This document shows, piece by piece, positions 7,693 through 55,924 of a stretch of 64,000 nt of DNA. The notes beneath the pieces were generated by a model. That model saw only the letters and a program-made list of their open reading frames with translations, was not told the DNA's origin and searched no databases. Every line of letters starts with the position of its first letter. Position 1 is the stretch's first letter. Where the stretch lies: NCBI GenBank assembly GCA_903848955.1, contig CAINHS010000051.1:1-64000 (forward strand), read 5' to 3'. Made by a program: the position numbers and the translations under genes. The stretch is from an uncultured beta proteobacterium. GTDB taxonomy: Bacteria > Pseudomonadota > Gammaproteobacteria > Burkholderiales > Rhodocyclaceae.

Positions 7693-10659
7693 TCACAGCT
7701 TGTAGTGGATGAACACGCCGATGACATTGGCGCGATAGCTCTGGGGCCCGGCATCGAGCAACAGGGTGCCGCTGTCGTAATTGGCGACGGCCCCCGTGAT
7801 CACGCCGTCGTAATGCCAGTCCTTGACCTTGCCGATCTCATAGCGGTCGAACAGGCGTATCGACAGCTTCTTGTCGATCGGGATGAGGAGGTTGAGGTTC
7901 AGGGTGTGCTGGACGTAGGTCATGTTGGGCAGGGCACTGCCGGCGATCACGGCCGCTGCCGCTTGTGTCGCGGCGACGTTGCTTATCGCCGTGCCGCCGT
8001 AGGCATAGTCGATCCGGGTCGTGCTGTTCGAGTAGGTGTAGTCGAGGCCGAACCGCAGACTGCCGAGATCCTTCTGCATGCCGAAGCCGAACACGTCGTT
8101 GCGGTCGTCATTGGTCGATGACCAGGCCGACGACAGCGGACGCCCGCCGTTGGTGCCGCCGATGTTGTCGGCACAGGCCGAGTAGCCGTACAAAGCCAGA
8201 TTGGCGGCGGTGCAGGCCGTATTGACGAGGGAGGCCTGGCCCGAGTTCAGATTCATCGCCTTCTTGCCTTGCTGGTAGGTGTAGAAGGCGTAGAAATTCT
8301 CAGAGGTCGAGGGCTGGTAATTGAGATCCAGGCTCAATGAATTCTGCGTGTCCTTCTCGAGACCGTAGAAGGAATCGGGATACTTCACGTCCTTCATCTG
8401 CAAGGTGGCGCCCAGATCCAGGTCTTCCCGCGCCAGGAAGTTCAGGCGGGCATTGAGGATGTTCTGGTCGCGATCGGCCTGATCGTACTTGCGGAAGTAG
8501 TACGAGTAGCGGTTGAAGAAATTGGCATTGAGGTTCGGATATTGACCGATGCCGGCACCGGTGGCGGCCGTGATATTGGCAAGCAGCGTGGCGATATCGA
8601 GCCCCGGCAACCCTTGGCCGAGATCCTCGAAAGTCCGGTAGCGATACTCTCCACCGCGCTTGCGGTCGGTCTCTGCAGAAAGACGCAATGTGGTGTCCCC
8701 GAGGGCGCGGTTGACATAGCCCAGCTTGAACTTGTCTTCCCAGGTCTTTTCGCGTTCGCGGAAGTTGCGCTTGAAGTCCTCCCGTTCCAGGGCGGCATTG
8801 ATGCTGCTGGTCCGGGTCAGATCGTAGTCCGCGGTCACGCCGTAATTGTCCTGCTTGGTCGATCGCGCCTGGCCGAACACGGGAATGTTGACACCCGAGG
8901 CCACCGTATTGGCGCCTGTCCCGAACTGACAAGTAGCGATCAAAGCATTGCCGGCGAGCCCGGGAGGGACGTAGCAGCTTCCCGCCGTACCCGGCGTCGC
9001 GCCGGGCCGCAGGCCGACTACGCCGTCAAAGCCGCCGAGACCGTTGCCTTCCGCGATGCCCCTGCCGAACTGGCCGGTGAGGGGGTTGTAGGCGATGTAG
9101 CCGCCCTTGTTAACCGTCTCGTAACTGCGGAAACTGCCCTTGACGCTGAGGTCCTCGACCGGCTTGAGAGACAGGCCCAGATCCAGCAGCTTGTTGTCGA
9201 TGCGCTGCCTGGAGGTCGCCTGGCTCAAGGCGGCGGTGGTATTCCAGTTTGACACCAGGCCGCTGTTTGCAGCGTAGCCGATGTTGTTGCTGGTCAGGTT
9301 GGTGATGCCGGCCGCCGCATACTGGGCGCTCTGGGCTGCCGAGATCGGCGCCAGGAGGTCGTCGTTCTGCCGGTTGCTGCCCCAGGACACCGCCGCGGTG
9401 AAGCGCCCCTTGTAGAAGTCGGGTAGCTGGCGTGCAAATTCGCCCTTCAGATTAAAGGCGTGGTTGTCCGGATACAGGTCGTAGGTGGCCGCCTGCACCA
9501 CGCCGTTGCCGCCGGCAACGCCGAGCAGCGGATACTGCACGTTCAGCGTGCTGATGTTGTTGCGGAACATCGACATGGAGGCGCGCAGATTGGCCTGGGT
9601 GAGCGAGTCGGCATACTGCAGACCCGCCAGAAGTTCGTGGGTATCGTAGTCGATGGGTTCGGCGATTTCGCTCGAGATATTGGCCTCGTTCATGGCGAAC
9701 GGCCGGCTGCCCTTGCGCTTCTCGCTGCTGTAGCTGGCATAGCCTTTCCAGAAGTTGTCCAGCGTCGCTTCGAGGCGCAGCCCGCCCTTCTTGCGCACCA
9801 GGGACAGTTCGCTGTCCGCAGTTGCCGCCGCCTTGTTGCTGAGGGCCAGCGCCATGTTGGACTGTTCCGAGCCGGCAACCAGCGCACCTGCGGCGTTATA
9901 GGTGCCGACAATGCCGTTGATGCCGGCGAGCGCCGTGCCGTTGGCGTAGAGTTTGCCGTTGTAGGCCCAGCATGGAGCAATCGCAGTACAAGCACCGGCG
10001 GCACCATAGGCGGCGAGACCGAGCGTGGTCGCCTGGGCGGCGAGCGTGCCTGATGTCACTGCCCTCGGCGCGGCAAGCCCGGTCGTCAGATCGCCCGACC
10101 CCTCGCCGTTGTAGATCGACTTCCAGTTGTCGCTGAAAACGTGGATGGTCTCGCTGTAGAACAGTTTGGCCTTCCAGTCGTTGTAGCGCCCGAATTGCAT
10201 GCCGTAAAACTGGTCCTGCCGCCCGGCGCCGCCGCCGAAAGCCTGGATGAAGTTGGCGCTGTCGGGCTTTTCCGCTTCAATCTCGAAGTAGTCGAGATAG
10301 GCGCCGTTCTTCAAGTCCTTGTACTTGCGGAACAGCGCGTTCTTCCTGCCGGCGTCGCCGCCGATCACGCCGACCTCGACGCCGCCGGAATATTCCCAGC
10401 CGCCCGCGGTCTTGTTGCCGCCTTCAGCGGCGCGGTCGTAGGGGATGCCGTAAAGCTGGCCTGACGGCGAGTGGCGCACGGTATCGAGCCCGTCGTCCGC
10501 CAGGGGGCGCGGCACGGCCGAGCGGCCGGGCGGATTAAGGGCGTTGCCGAGGGCGGTGTCGACGCCGACGGCCGAGTCGGCGCGGGCGGAACCGGCACCC
10601 CACTGGGCAAGGGCGACGCCGACGCAGGCGGCGATTATTTTCAAGCGGGGACGAGTCGT
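7693..10659 (-). CDS. MtrB/PioB family decaheme-associated outer-membrane beta-barrel protein
   Basis: Signal peptide from MTTRPRLK; long alternating amphipathic strands; adjacent to decaheme cytochrome; ends in aromatic barrel-type terminus FIHYKL. Confidence 0.92.
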   Translation of the reverse strand, partial: TTRPRLKIIAACVGVALAQWGAGSARADSAVGVDTALGNALNPPGRSAVPRPLADDGLDTVRHSPSGQLYGIPYDRAAEGGNKTAGGWEYSGGVEVGVIGGDAGRKNALFRKYKDLKNGAYLDYFEIEAEKPDSANFIQAFGGGAGRQDQFYGMQFGRYNDWKAKLFYSETIHVFSDNWKSIYNGEGSGDLTTGLAAPRAVTSGTLAAQATTLGLAAYGAAGACTAIAPCWAYNGKLYANGTALAGINGIVGTYNAAGALVAGSEQSNMALALSNKAAATADSELSLVRKKGGLRLEATLDNFWKGYASYSSEKRKGSRPFAMNEANISSEIAEPIDYDTHELLAGLQYADSLTQANLRASMSMFRNNISTLNVQYPLLGVAGGNGVVQAATYDLYPDNHAFNLKGEFARQLPDFYKGRFTAAVSWGSNRQNDDLLAPISAAQSAQYAAAGITNLTSNNIGYAANSGLVSNWNTTAALSQATSRQRIDNKLLDLGLSLKPVEDLSVKGSFRSYETVNKGGYIAYNPLTGQFGRGIAEGNGLGGFDGVVGLRPGATPGTAGSCYVPPGLAGNALIATCQFGTGANTVASGVNIPVFGQARSTKQDNYGVTADYDLTRTSSINAALEREDFKRNFREREKTWEDKFKLGYVNRALGDTTLRLSAETDRKRGGEYRYRTFEDLGQGLPGLDIATLLANITAATGAGIGQYPNLNANFFNRYSYYFRKYDQADRDQNILNARLNFLAREDLDLGATLQMKDVKYPDSFYGLEKDTQNSLSLDLNYQPSTSENFYAFYTYQQGKKAMNLNSGQASLVNTACTAANLALYGYSACADNIGGTNGGRPLSSAWSSTNDDRNDVFGFGMQKDLGSLRFGLDYTYSNSTTRIDYAYGGTAISNVAATQAAAAVIAGSALPNMTYVQHTLNLNLLIPIDKKLSIRLFDRYEIGKVKDWHYDGVITGAVANYDSGTLLLDAGPQSYRANVIGVFIHYKL

Positions 10660-52523: not shown

Positions 52524-52659
52524 GCCGCAACGCGGCGTCAGCCCGCAGAGCCGGGGGTTTGCCCGCCATGGCTTTGCATTCCCGGGACACCCCTTCGGGG
52601 GCAGGCTGTGCCGGTCTCAGACAATCCGCTCCGGGGATACCGTCTCCGCGTCCCGCGGA

Positions 52660-52701
52660 GACATAAAAAGAAAGCGCGTGCCGAATTAACAGCACGCGCT
52701 T
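52660..52701 (-). terminator. Rho-independent terminator of the histone H1-like gene
   Basis: AAGCGCGTG...CACGCGCTT followed on the minus strand by TCTTTTTATG. Confidence 0.8.
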
Positions 52702-52759
52702 GCTATCCACTGGGCGCCGCGATCAGTCCCGCAGGACTAAACGCAGGCCGATGCTACCG

Positions 52760-53404
52760 TCAGGGACGGGAACCGGTGGGAAACGGCCAGGCCGCAGCAG
52801 GATTCAGCGACGACTTGATGCCGGGAGCAGCCGCCGTTGAAGGCGCCGCAGCAGCAGCGGGCTTCGCGGCAGGCTTTGCAGCAGCCTTCTTCGGTGCAGC
52901 CTTCTTCGCAGCAGGCTTGGCAGCAGGCTTCGCAGCAGGCTTTTTGGCAGCAGGCTTCTTCGCAGCAGGCTTCTTGGCAGCAGCCTTCTTCGGTGCAGCC
53001 TTTTTCGCAGCAGGCTTCTTCGCAGCAGCCTTCTTCGGTGCAGCCTTTTTCGCAGCAGGCTTCTTCGCAGCAGGCTTCTTCGCAGCAGCCTTCTTCGGTG
53101 CAGCCTTTTTCGCAGCCGGCTTCTTGGCAACAGCCTTCTTCGCGGCGGGTTTGGCAGCAGCCTTCTTCGGCGCAGCTTTCTTCGCAGCGGGCTTGGCAGC
53201 CGGCTTCTTGGCAACAGCCTTCTTCGCGGCGGGTTTGGCAGCAGCCTTCTTCGGCGCAGCTTTCTTCGCAGCGGGCTTGGCAGCCGCCTTCTTTACAGCC
53301 GGCTTTTTGGCAGCTGGCTTCTTCGGGGCCGCAGACTTCTTAGCGGCGGGCTTAGCCGCAGCCTTCTTTGCGGCCGGCTTCTTGGCTTTCTTCTCATCAG
53401 CCAT
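52760..53404 (-). CDS. Histone H1-like Lys/Ala/Pro-rich DNA-binding protein (HctB/AlgP-like)
   Basis: Start MADEKKAKKPAAKKAAAKPAAKK; repeats of KKAAPKKAAAKKPAAKK. Confidence 0.92.
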   Translation of the reverse strand: MADEKKAKKPAAKKAAAKPAAKKSAAPKKPAAKKPAVKKAAAKPAAKKAAPKKAAAKPAAKKAVAKKPAAKPAAKKAAPKKAAAKPAAKKAVAKKPAAKKAAPKKAAAKKPAAKKPAAKKAAPKKAAAKKPAAKKAAPKKAAAKKPAAKKPAAKKPAAKPAAKPAAKKAAPKKAAAKPAAKPAAAAAPSTAAAPGIKSSLNPAAAWPFPTGSRP

Positions 53405-53891
53405 GTTGAACCTCCTTAACAAATTAACAGGAAAGAACCACCACTACTTTTTTACTGCAACCCGTCTGGGCTAGCACGGATTATCCAACGCTCCGATGCA
53501 ATCGAAAGCGACGAATTCCTCACGTTTATCCGCCTATCACTTGGTTTTGAAACCGCAGACGACAAACGCACAACAAACCATATATCATATTCCGGCAATC
53601 ACAAACCGGCGCATTGCCTGATCAACACTCGCTCGGACGCTTGAGCGCGGGCAGCATGCCGCGCCGCGCACCGGCCTGATGCGGCTAATCGATGAAGCGG
53701 AAGAAATGCGCGGTGAGGAACGATGCGGGCGACTCTGGCACGGATCATTTGCAGACGGTCGGGCGGACCAGTTGAGGTCGGAGGAATCGGCGCCCAAGGC
53801 ATCCTGCATTCAGATCTCCCGTCTTTATCGTTATGAAGCCGGAGGTGGTCGGGACGCTGCGACAGTACATCATCCCTTTTGCAACGACGAC

Positions 53892-53938
53892 CTACTATAT
53901 CTAGTGGGTCATTGTCGATCTCGCACTAATTGTAGTGG
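53892..53938 (-). promoter_or_regulatory. Tandem NrdR-box-like palindromes
   Basis: CTACTATATCTAGTGG (53892-53907) and GCACTAATTGTAGTGG (53923-53938), 31 bp start to start; compare recalled NrdR consensus acaCwAtATaTwGtgt. Confidence 0.65.
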
Positions 53939-53975
53939 TTGCTTTTTTTAACCGCAAGAGTTTTCTGCTGTCAAG

Positions 53976-53999
53976 CAAAAAAAAAGCGTTGCCGCTTTG
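53976..53999 (-). terminator. Rho-independent terminator of ampD
   Basis: Minus strand AAAGCG-gcaa-CGCTTTTTTTTT just after the ampD stop at 54006. Confidence 0.75.
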
Positions 54000-54005
54000 C
54001 CACAG

Positions 54006-54557
54006 TCATCGGCCTGCGTCTTGCACCCGAAGCCAATCAAAGCAGGGACCGGGATCAGTCTTGCGTCCCGGTGCGACATCGCTGTGACCCACCACCGCGG
54101 CAATCGGATAACGCCGGCGAAGTTCCGTGAGCAGGCTGTTGAGGCCCTGATACTGGGCCTCTTCGAATGGACGCCGGTCACAGCCTTCGAGTTCAATGCC
54201 GATGGAGAAGTTGTTGCAGTTCTCGCGGCCCAGCCAATTCGATGCGCCGGCATGCCAGGCCCGCTTGGAACACGGCACGAACTGGATCAGTTCGCCGTCA
54301 CGCCGCAGAAGAAAATGCGCCGAGACCTGCAGGCCCCGTATCTGGCTGAAGTACGGGTGCGCCGCGGGATCAAGGCAATTGGTAAACAGCTGGATGATTC
54401 CCGGTCCGCCGAATTCGTCGGGGGGCAGGCTGATGGCATGGATGACGATCAGGCGCACCTGTTCGTCCTCGGGCCGCTCATCGCAATTTGGTGACGGCAC
54501 ACGACGCGCGGCGGACAACCAACCCGCGTCGTCCTCCCCGGCCTGCCCCTGCTTCAC
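54006..54557 (-). CDS. ampD: 1,6-anhydro-N-acetylmuramyl-L-alanine amidase
   Basis: RLIVIHAISLPPDEFGG, VSAHFLLRRDGELIQFVPCSKRAWHAGASNWLGRENCNNFSIGIELEG, VGHSDVAPGRKTDPGPCFDW. Confidence 0.96.
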   Translation of the reverse strand: MKQGQAGEDDAGWLSAARRVPSPNCDERPEDEQVRLIVIHAISLPPDEFGGPGIIQLFTNCLDPAAHPYFSQIRGLQVSAHFLLRRDGELIQFVPCSKRAWHAGASNWLGRENCNNFSIGIELEGCDRRPFEEAQYQGLNSLLTELRRRYPIAAVVGHSDVAPGRKTDPGPCFDWLRVQDAGR

Positions 54558-55924
54558 TCGTTCATTCCCAGTCGCGCCATTCGATAGCGCAGGGAACGGA
54601 AAGTGACGCCGAGCAGCCGGGCGGCAGCGGTTCGATTGTTGTTCGACTGTTTGAGGGCATCCAGAACCGCCTGCCGCTCGACCTGGTCGAGATGGTCCTG
54701 CAGGGACCCGCCGGCCGTTGCGGCGACAACTCCAGGCAGCGGCGAAGGCGCCAGATTGAGATCAACCACGTCGATGCGGTCGCCTGCCATCAGCGCCAGG
54801 GCACGCTCCAGCACGTTCTCGAGTTCGCGCACGTTGCCCGGAAAAGGGTAGTCCTGCAGCGCCTCAAGAGCGGCAGCAGCCAGCGGTGGCGGGGTCACAT
54901 CAGCGGCCCGCGCCAAGCGTTCCAGGATGTGCTGCGCCAGCATCGGGATGTCATCACGGCACTCGCGCAAGGCCGGCATCCTCAGCTCGATGACATTCAG
55001 CCGGTAGAACAAATCCTGACGGAACCGTCCCTGCTCGACCAGCGTCTTGAGGTCCTGATGCGTGGCGCAGATGATGCGTACGTCTGCAATTTCCTCGCTG
55101 GCGGCGCCGAGCTTGCGCACACGCTTTTCCTGGATCGCCCGCAACAGTTTGACCTGCATCGGCAGGGGCAGGTCCGCAACCTCGTCCAGAAACAGGGTGC
55201 CGCCGTCGGCCATCTGGAAAAAACCTTCGCGATCGTCATTGGCGCCGGTAAATGCTCCCTTGCGGTAGCCGAAGAACTCGCTCTCCATCAGACTTTCCGG
55301 AATTGCGCCGCAGTTGACCGGCACAAAGGCGCGGTCGCGGCGGGCGCCCAGAGAGTGGATCAACCGCGCCGCGAGTTCCTTGCCGCTGCCCGACTCGCCG
55401 GTAATATGCACCGGGGCCTGGCTGCGCGCCACGCGATCGATCAGTGCGCGCACCTGCCCTATTGCCGGCGAGTCGCCGAGCAAGCCCGAGCCGCCGGCTG
55501 CGTCGCCCGCCGGATCGGAACCGGGCAACTCCAGCGCGGACTTGACCATACCCCGCAACTGGTCAAGCGACACAGGTTTGGCGATGTAATCAAAAGCTCC
55601 GGCCTTGAGCGCCGACACTGCATTTTCGGCACTGCCATAGGCGGTTATTACCGCCACCGGCAGATCGACCACGGTATCGGCGATATGGCGCACCAGTTCC
55701 AGGCCCTCGCCGTCGGGCAGGCGCATGTCGGTGAGACACAGCTGGTAGCGCTGACCGGCGAGCATGCGCCGCGCCTCGGCGATGGAGCCGACGCAATCCG
55801 CCAGCAAACCCATGCGCGCCAGGGTGAGATCCAGCAACTCGCGGATGTCCGCTTCATCGTCGACCACCAGGACGCGCTTGGCTTCGCCGCGGTTGCGGGC
55901 ACGGCTTTCATTCTTCAGCGGCAT
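54554..55924 (-). CDS. pilR: Sigma-54-dependent response regulator, PilR-like
   Basis: LVVDDEADIRELL; GESGSGKELAARLIH; ESEFFGYRKGAFTGA; Fis-type C-terminal HTH. Confidence 0.93.
   Translation of the reverse strand: MPLKNESRARNRGEAKRVLVVDDEADIRELLDLTLARMGLLADCVGSIAEARRMLAGQRYQLCLTDMRLPDGEGLELVRHIADTVVDLPVAVITAYGSAENAVSALKAGAFDYIAKPVSLDQLRGMVKSALELPGSDPAGDAAGGSGLLGDSPAIGQVRALIDRVARSQAPVHITGESGSGKELAARLIHSLGARRDRAFVPVNCGAIPESLMESEFFGYRKGAFTGANDDREGFFQMADGGTLFLDEVADLPLPMQVKLLRAIQEKRVRKLGAASEEIADVRIICATHQDLKTLVEQGRFRQDLFYRLNVIELRMPALRECRDDIPMLAQHILERLARAADVTPPPLAAAALEALQDYPFPGNVRELENVLERALALMAGDRIDVVDLNLAPSPLPGVVAATAGGSLQDHLDQVERQAVLDALKQSNNNRTAAARLLGVTFRSLRYRMARLGMNE

Follow-up and report, generated by a model that had tools for sequence, protein, structure and literature searches.

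A predicted NrdR operator maintained at a former nrdAB site upstream of a histone H1-like gene in the Rhodocyclaceae

Between ampD and a gene for a histone H1-like protein, the window (the whole 64-kb stretch of DNA that was analyzed, from a genome judged to be Sulfuritalea) carries two NrdR boxes in tandem, arranged around a predicted promoter in the manner of a textbook NrdR operator. The explanation that we lean toward, with only modest confidence, is that the tandem belongs to a promoter through which NrdR repressed an ancestral nrdAB operon, and that this promoter was kept by selection after the operon was deleted and now feeds the histone H1-like gene. NrdR normally controls ribonucleotide reductase (RNR) and is described as an RNR-specific repressor. 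There is perhaps an even chance that in much of the Rhodocyclaceae NrdR has gained a non-RNR gene, encoding a histone H1-like protein, and that DNA compaction is thereby tied to the dATP/ATP ratio. If true, this would directly link the supply of DNA precursors to a bacterial histone-like protein, with a sensor of the dNTP pool controlling DNA packing. A canonical two-box operator with a readable history, conserved in some 20 genera but with no RNR gene behind it, also offers a clean and testable example of how a regulator can hold on to a promoter whose original target has been lost. The features of the locus, in the order in which they are read on the minus strand, are:

54554-55924, minus strand: PilR/NtrC-type sigma54 response regulator, a conserved neighbor (synteny)
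54006-54557, minus strand: ampD (PF01510), left flank of the lost operon and synteny anchor
53983-53998, minus strand: ampD intrinsic terminator, upstream of the promoter
53952-53957, minus strand: predicted -35 element TTGCGG; the TTGC columns are conserved in genomes with and without nrdAB
53929-53934, minus strand: predicted -10 element TACAAT; TA(C/G)AAT is conserved in both classes of genome
53923-53938, minus strand: predicted promoter-proximal NrdR box, GCACTAATTGTAGTGG (minus strand CCACTACAATTAGTGC), 11/16 to consensus, containing the -10
53892-53907, minus strand: predicted promoter-distal (downstream) NrdR box, CTACTATATCTAGTGG (minus strand CCACTAGATATAGTAG), 12/16 to consensus
53816-53820, minus strand: Shine-Dalgarno sequence GGGAG of the relic nrdA start, shared by every Sulfuritalea compared
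53585-53809, minus strand: open frame of 74 codons that begins at the old nrdA start, MQDALGADSSDLNW..., no family match
53478-53519, minus strand: histone-proximal conserved element, GGAATTC ... GATAATCC, within a block with homology to the gap between nrdB and the histone gene in nrdAB-bearing relatives
52760-53404, minus strand: histone H1-like gene, 214 aa, start at 53404 (PF07382 HC2, 80 bits; NF038053 hist_H1_lk_Burk, 96 bits)

Boxes were scored by the number of letters matching the 16-bp NrdR consensus ACACWATATATWGTGT; the palindromic boxes of an NrdR operator resemble acaCwatATatwGtgt. Both palindromes contain a central ACTA-N4-TAGT, and they lie 31 bp apart, start to start, just as the initial annotation had described them. 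The helical spacing that it pointed out also held: the 15-bp spacer corresponds to an integral number of helical turns (14-17 bp) and falls within the spacing bound most strongly by the four NrdRs tested (PMC12051234). Both boxes possess the C/G pairs that were found to be needed for NrdR binding (PMC9110341). On the minus strand the ampD terminator (53998-53983) does precede the boxes, as first annotated; it is followed by TTGCGG, 17 bp, TACAAT within the first box, and then the second box, at roughly +15 to +30 relative to the predicted start site (near 53922). The boxes thus overlap the predicted polymerase site and start site. Two -10-like sequences, TACAAT and TATAGT, had been proposed; since the -35 sits 17 bp before TACAAT, the former, within the upstream box, is the likely -10, and TATAGT is not. 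Most relatives have TTGCAG as the -35, versus TTGCGG in the window. A simple scan of the minus strand of the interval returned neither a terminator nor a sigma70 consensus promoter.

In these respects the tandem resembles the NrdR operators of nrdAB and nrdRJ in Streptomyces coelicolor, Escherichia coli and Pseudomonas aeruginosa, which likewise have two palindromic 16-bp boxes with a 15-bp spacer that overlap the -10 and start site. NrdR itself is encoded in the genome (L001; TIGR00244, 184 bits), as the initial reading of the boxes demanded, and its translation has the specificity residues D15 and R17 together with the arginine run. In the S. coelicolor NrdR structure, D15 and R17 contact the boxes (PMC9110341). 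Thus, on the basis of its sequence, the tandem between ampD and the histone gene qualifies as an NrdR operator, and NrdR would be expected to bind it. Unlike the known operators, however, it is followed by a histone H1-like gene rather than an RNR gene. The absence of an RNR gene had been noticed at the outset, and no gene of family PF02867, PF00268 or PF13597 was found near the tandem. Location of the nrd genes elsewhere in the genome, proposed in the initial annotation as a check, gave NrdJ as the sole ribonucleotide reductase, encoded by the only PF02867 gene, on another contig; NrdB and NrdD were looked for in the genome, and neither was found.

Although an RNR operon is missing here, the same site does precede nrdAB at the orthologous locus of relatives. 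Among 40 ampD neighborhoods across the Burkholderiales, the order pilR-ampD-[boxes]-nrdA-nrdB-histone was found in many families, and among 84 neighborhoods of the same family it is present in 14 genomes, as far as their contigs extend. This bears out the statement in the initial annotation that nrdAB lies near ampD and histone-like genes in other betaproteobacteria. A box-only order, pilR-ampD-[boxes]-histone, occurs within those 84 neighborhoods in 28 genomes of 19 genera, plus Sulfuritalea; in most of the other neighborhoods ampD is followed by different genes, and boxes are absent. On its left side the deletion has its edge after the nrdA start, where the Shine-Dalgarno sequence and the ATGCAG that opens nrdA in many nrdAB-bearing relatives are retained; the right edge falls about 80 nt past the nrdB stop. 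Positions 53400-53550 are homologous to the nrdB-histone gap of one nrdAB-bearing relative, G214 (75% over 160 bp, E 2e-20). The GGGAG and the ATG at 53809 are both present as first noted and look like the old nrdA start with its Shine-Dalgarno sequence, although the frame that follows is no longer NrdA. The resemblance of 'LQMIRARVARIVPH' to an NrdA N-terminus did not survive, as tblastn of the interval gave nothing better than noise; the suggested comparison of 53405-53890 with NrdA and NrdB likewise returned no coding remnant, only noise, so that the Shine-Dalgarno sequence and ATGCAG start are all that is left. Relatives carry nrdA and nrdB between the same flanks and behind the same promoter, and judged from this shared gene order the locus is, beyond reasonable doubt, a former nrdAB site.

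Class I NrdB is present elsewhere in some box-only genomes, which means that the locus was lost, and not always the class I enzymes. Those Sulfuritalea genomes that were checked yielded no class I NrdB. A quick NrdJ tree, in which several deep forks are weak, places the box-only genomes in two clades. G214 (L205), which has the order ampD-boxes-nrdAB-histone, is nested within one of these clades on that tree, and thus several losses, or one loss and a regain, are needed. G214 has either kept the ancestral state or regained it by recombination.

In the mechanism that we propose, the deletion, with one edge shortly after the nrdA start codon and the other shortly beyond the nrdB stop, joined the promoter to the histone gene that had lain downstream of nrdB. 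When dATP is low, NrdR would come off the boxes, and RNA polymerase would start near 53922 on the minus strand. The transcript would cross the relic nrdA ribosome-binding site, from which a short leader frame under weak constraint would be translated. The transcript would then reach the histone gene without encountering a terminator, supplementing that gene's own proximal promoter. When dATP is high, NrdR tetramers loaded with dATP/ATP would occupy both boxes and shut the promoter. We infer both the direction of this control and the identity of the histone gene as its target.

The gene next downstream is the histone gene in every box-only site with a resolved histone call, the exact start in G239 being the exception. 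In G227, G204 and G191, which lack the relic start, the distance from box to histone ATG is only 218-276 nt (218 nt in G227). Because the histone gene is next in box-only genomes, even those without the frame, it is the simplest common target, and scans of the window and of 10 relatives turned up no terminator between boxes and histone gene. Several points count against it. The distance from the boxes to the histone gene in Sulfuritalea, about 490 bp, is long; the histone gene probably has a proximal promoter of its own; and G261 and G244 keep the histone gene although their boxes are unrecognizable. Box and histone gene may be together only for lack of rearrangement. In Sulfuritalea as well as in other genera, the approximately 190 nt before the histone start (53405-53600, minus strand) are conserved above most of the interval; they have the constant motifs GGAATTC ... 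GATAATCC ... CCCAGACGGGTTGCAG and no Rfam match. This conserved element is probably the histone gene's own promoter and leader.

The downstream gene belongs to the HC2/HctB family (PF07382, NF038053), above the curated cut-offs. The literature searched did not connect this family with NrdR and contained no case of NrdR acting through two boxes on a gene outside ribonucleotide reduction. Nor did it yield anything on RNR in Sulfuritalea or on an association of histone H1-like genes with ampD or nrdA. The published non-RNR target of NrdR is P. aeruginosa topA, where an NrdR box is likewise found at a gene for a protein of DNA topology (PMC4409342). However, topA has a single box, for which reason it is disputed as a target, and is activated by a mechanism that has been questioned (PMC12051234), whereas the site described here has two boxes in canonical repressor geometry.

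The main rival explanation, possible but distinctly less probable, is that the retained promoter drives an independent NrdR-repressed small RNA, or a small leader protein from the old nrdA start, and not the histone gene. It ranks ahead of the other alternatives on account of a strong terminator that stands, after about 230 nt, between the boxes and the histone gene of four related genomes (G265, G205 and the pair G276/G224), so that the transcript should end before the histone gene in these genomes. The intrinsic terminators of G276 (L176) and G224 (L194), about 230 nt after the boxes, show paired changes between the two species. The Shine-Dalgarno sequence and ATGCAG persist in every Sulfuritalea that was compared, as they do in several other genera. 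All 23 distinct species with enough sequence have the frame from 53809 open for 74 codons or more, while the other forward frames have about one stop or more within the same stretch. This persistence of the open frame suggests that the short transcript itself matters. On the other hand, a pN/pS of 0.65-0.83 and an unalignable C-terminus indicate weak protein constraint, and five genomes (G227, G191, G204, G233 and G239) have the boxes but no such frame. The 74-aa product matched no family in Pfam or NCBIfam, and most of the interval beyond the relic start is poorly alignable, even between sister species; a search of 52600-54600 against Rfam gave only a chance match far below the gathering score. 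The frame thus fits a translated leader, as it would be in transcription of the histone gene from the nrdAB promoter, better than a strongly constrained protein.

The case that the promoter has been maintained comes from the sites themselves. Information per column in the 26 box-only sites is 1.43 and 1.51 bits for the boxes and 0.36 for the spacer, compared with 1.55, 1.60 and 0.31 bits, respectively, in 14 nrdAB-bearing sites. Over 27 distinct sequences from Sulfuritalea and its nearest relatives, mean pairwise identity is 0.98 for the promoter-distal box, 0.90 for the promoter-proximal box and 0.59 for the spacer and downstream sequence. All 28 box-only relatives have the starts of their two boxes 31-32 bp apart, and the promoter-proximal box is retained in 28 genomes that have no nrdAB at the locus. 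Since the boxes are conserved as they are in nrdAB-bearing sites, and the -35 TTGC is conserved along with them, the operator and promoter have been maintained since the loss; on this comparative evidence the promoter and both boxes are under purifying selection. An NrdR-binding decoy, or a DNA-bending site that tunes free NrdR or local architecture with no important transcript, would also account for retained boxes, and the better symmetry of the tandem relative to the nrdJ site of the same genome and the sharp bending of DNA by NrdR (PMC9110341) are in its favor. However, the conserved -35 (TTGC) and -10 elements would be unnecessary for a decoy, and we consider this improbable.

Still less probable is a passive, decaying scar of a recent nrdAB loss. 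The initial annotation had proposed a scar of a lost operon, and the operator does stand at the former nrdAB site, but it is not decaying: about 20 genera retain the boxes, conserved as in nrdAB-bearing genomes, with the 15-bp spacer free to vary. The boxes have decayed in a few genomes (G194, G253, G261 and G244), so that decay is possible where selection does not oppose it. Finally, chance palindromes or sites of another regulator are hardly credible, for although only 11-12 of the 16 consensus letters match, the same site precedes nrdA in three distantly related species and is found in nrdJ promoters throughout the family, and the resampling controls speak against it.

In these controls, by which chance was excluded, sequences were resampled with a first-order Markov model; a tandem with at least 11/16 in each box, which occurs a single time in the 64-kb window, appeared in none of 60 resampled windows and in 1 of 3000 resampled intervals. 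With no mismatch allowed, the strict single-box pattern has two sites in the 3.6-Mb genome, the ampD-histone tandem and the nrdJ promoter. Of 31 Sulfuritalea genomes, 27 contain the strict tandem pattern, each of them a single time, and all 13 genomes of good quality are among these; a reversed control pattern had 0 matches in the 31. An exact search for the tandem core in 84,980 species returned 27 loci, 24 of them Rhodocyclales-type, as judged by the record or the ampD-histone context. The remaining three, from Pseudoduganella violaceinigra, Yanghanlia caeni and an Oxalobacteraceae MAG, all have the tandem directly before nrdA, with ampD or a pilR-like gene opposite in two. In two Oxalobacteraceae sequences (L051 and L069) the identical tandem lies before nrdA and adjoins ampD or pilR.

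The nrdJ promoter has the same box core as the ampD-histone tandem, which is the more symmetric of the two. Nearly all family members without nrdAB beside ampD have tandem or near-tandem boxes before nrdJ, and it looks as if NrdR control had shifted to nrdJ upon loss of nrdAB.

Further observations concern related sites. The Sulfuritalea nrdJ operator (L002 1044-1090 and orthologues) consists of one strong box, ATACTATATCTAGTAG, and a second element, 31-32 bp further, of which only the half site CACTAG is conserved. Among nrdAB-bearing genomes, the nrdJ upstream regions (L209-L268) are without NrdR boxes in 7 of 11. A more distant family contains a genome, G048 (L100), with an extra NrdR-like tandem between nrdB and the histone gene, at about 8344-8391 in the ampD orientation; its boxes score 10/16 and 13/16, are 32 bp apart and lie behind TTGACA. 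This extra pair speaks in favor of the histone gene as the target. Another Sulfuritalea, G011 (L048), has a second PF02867 gene besides nrdJ, with an open frame of 854 codons.
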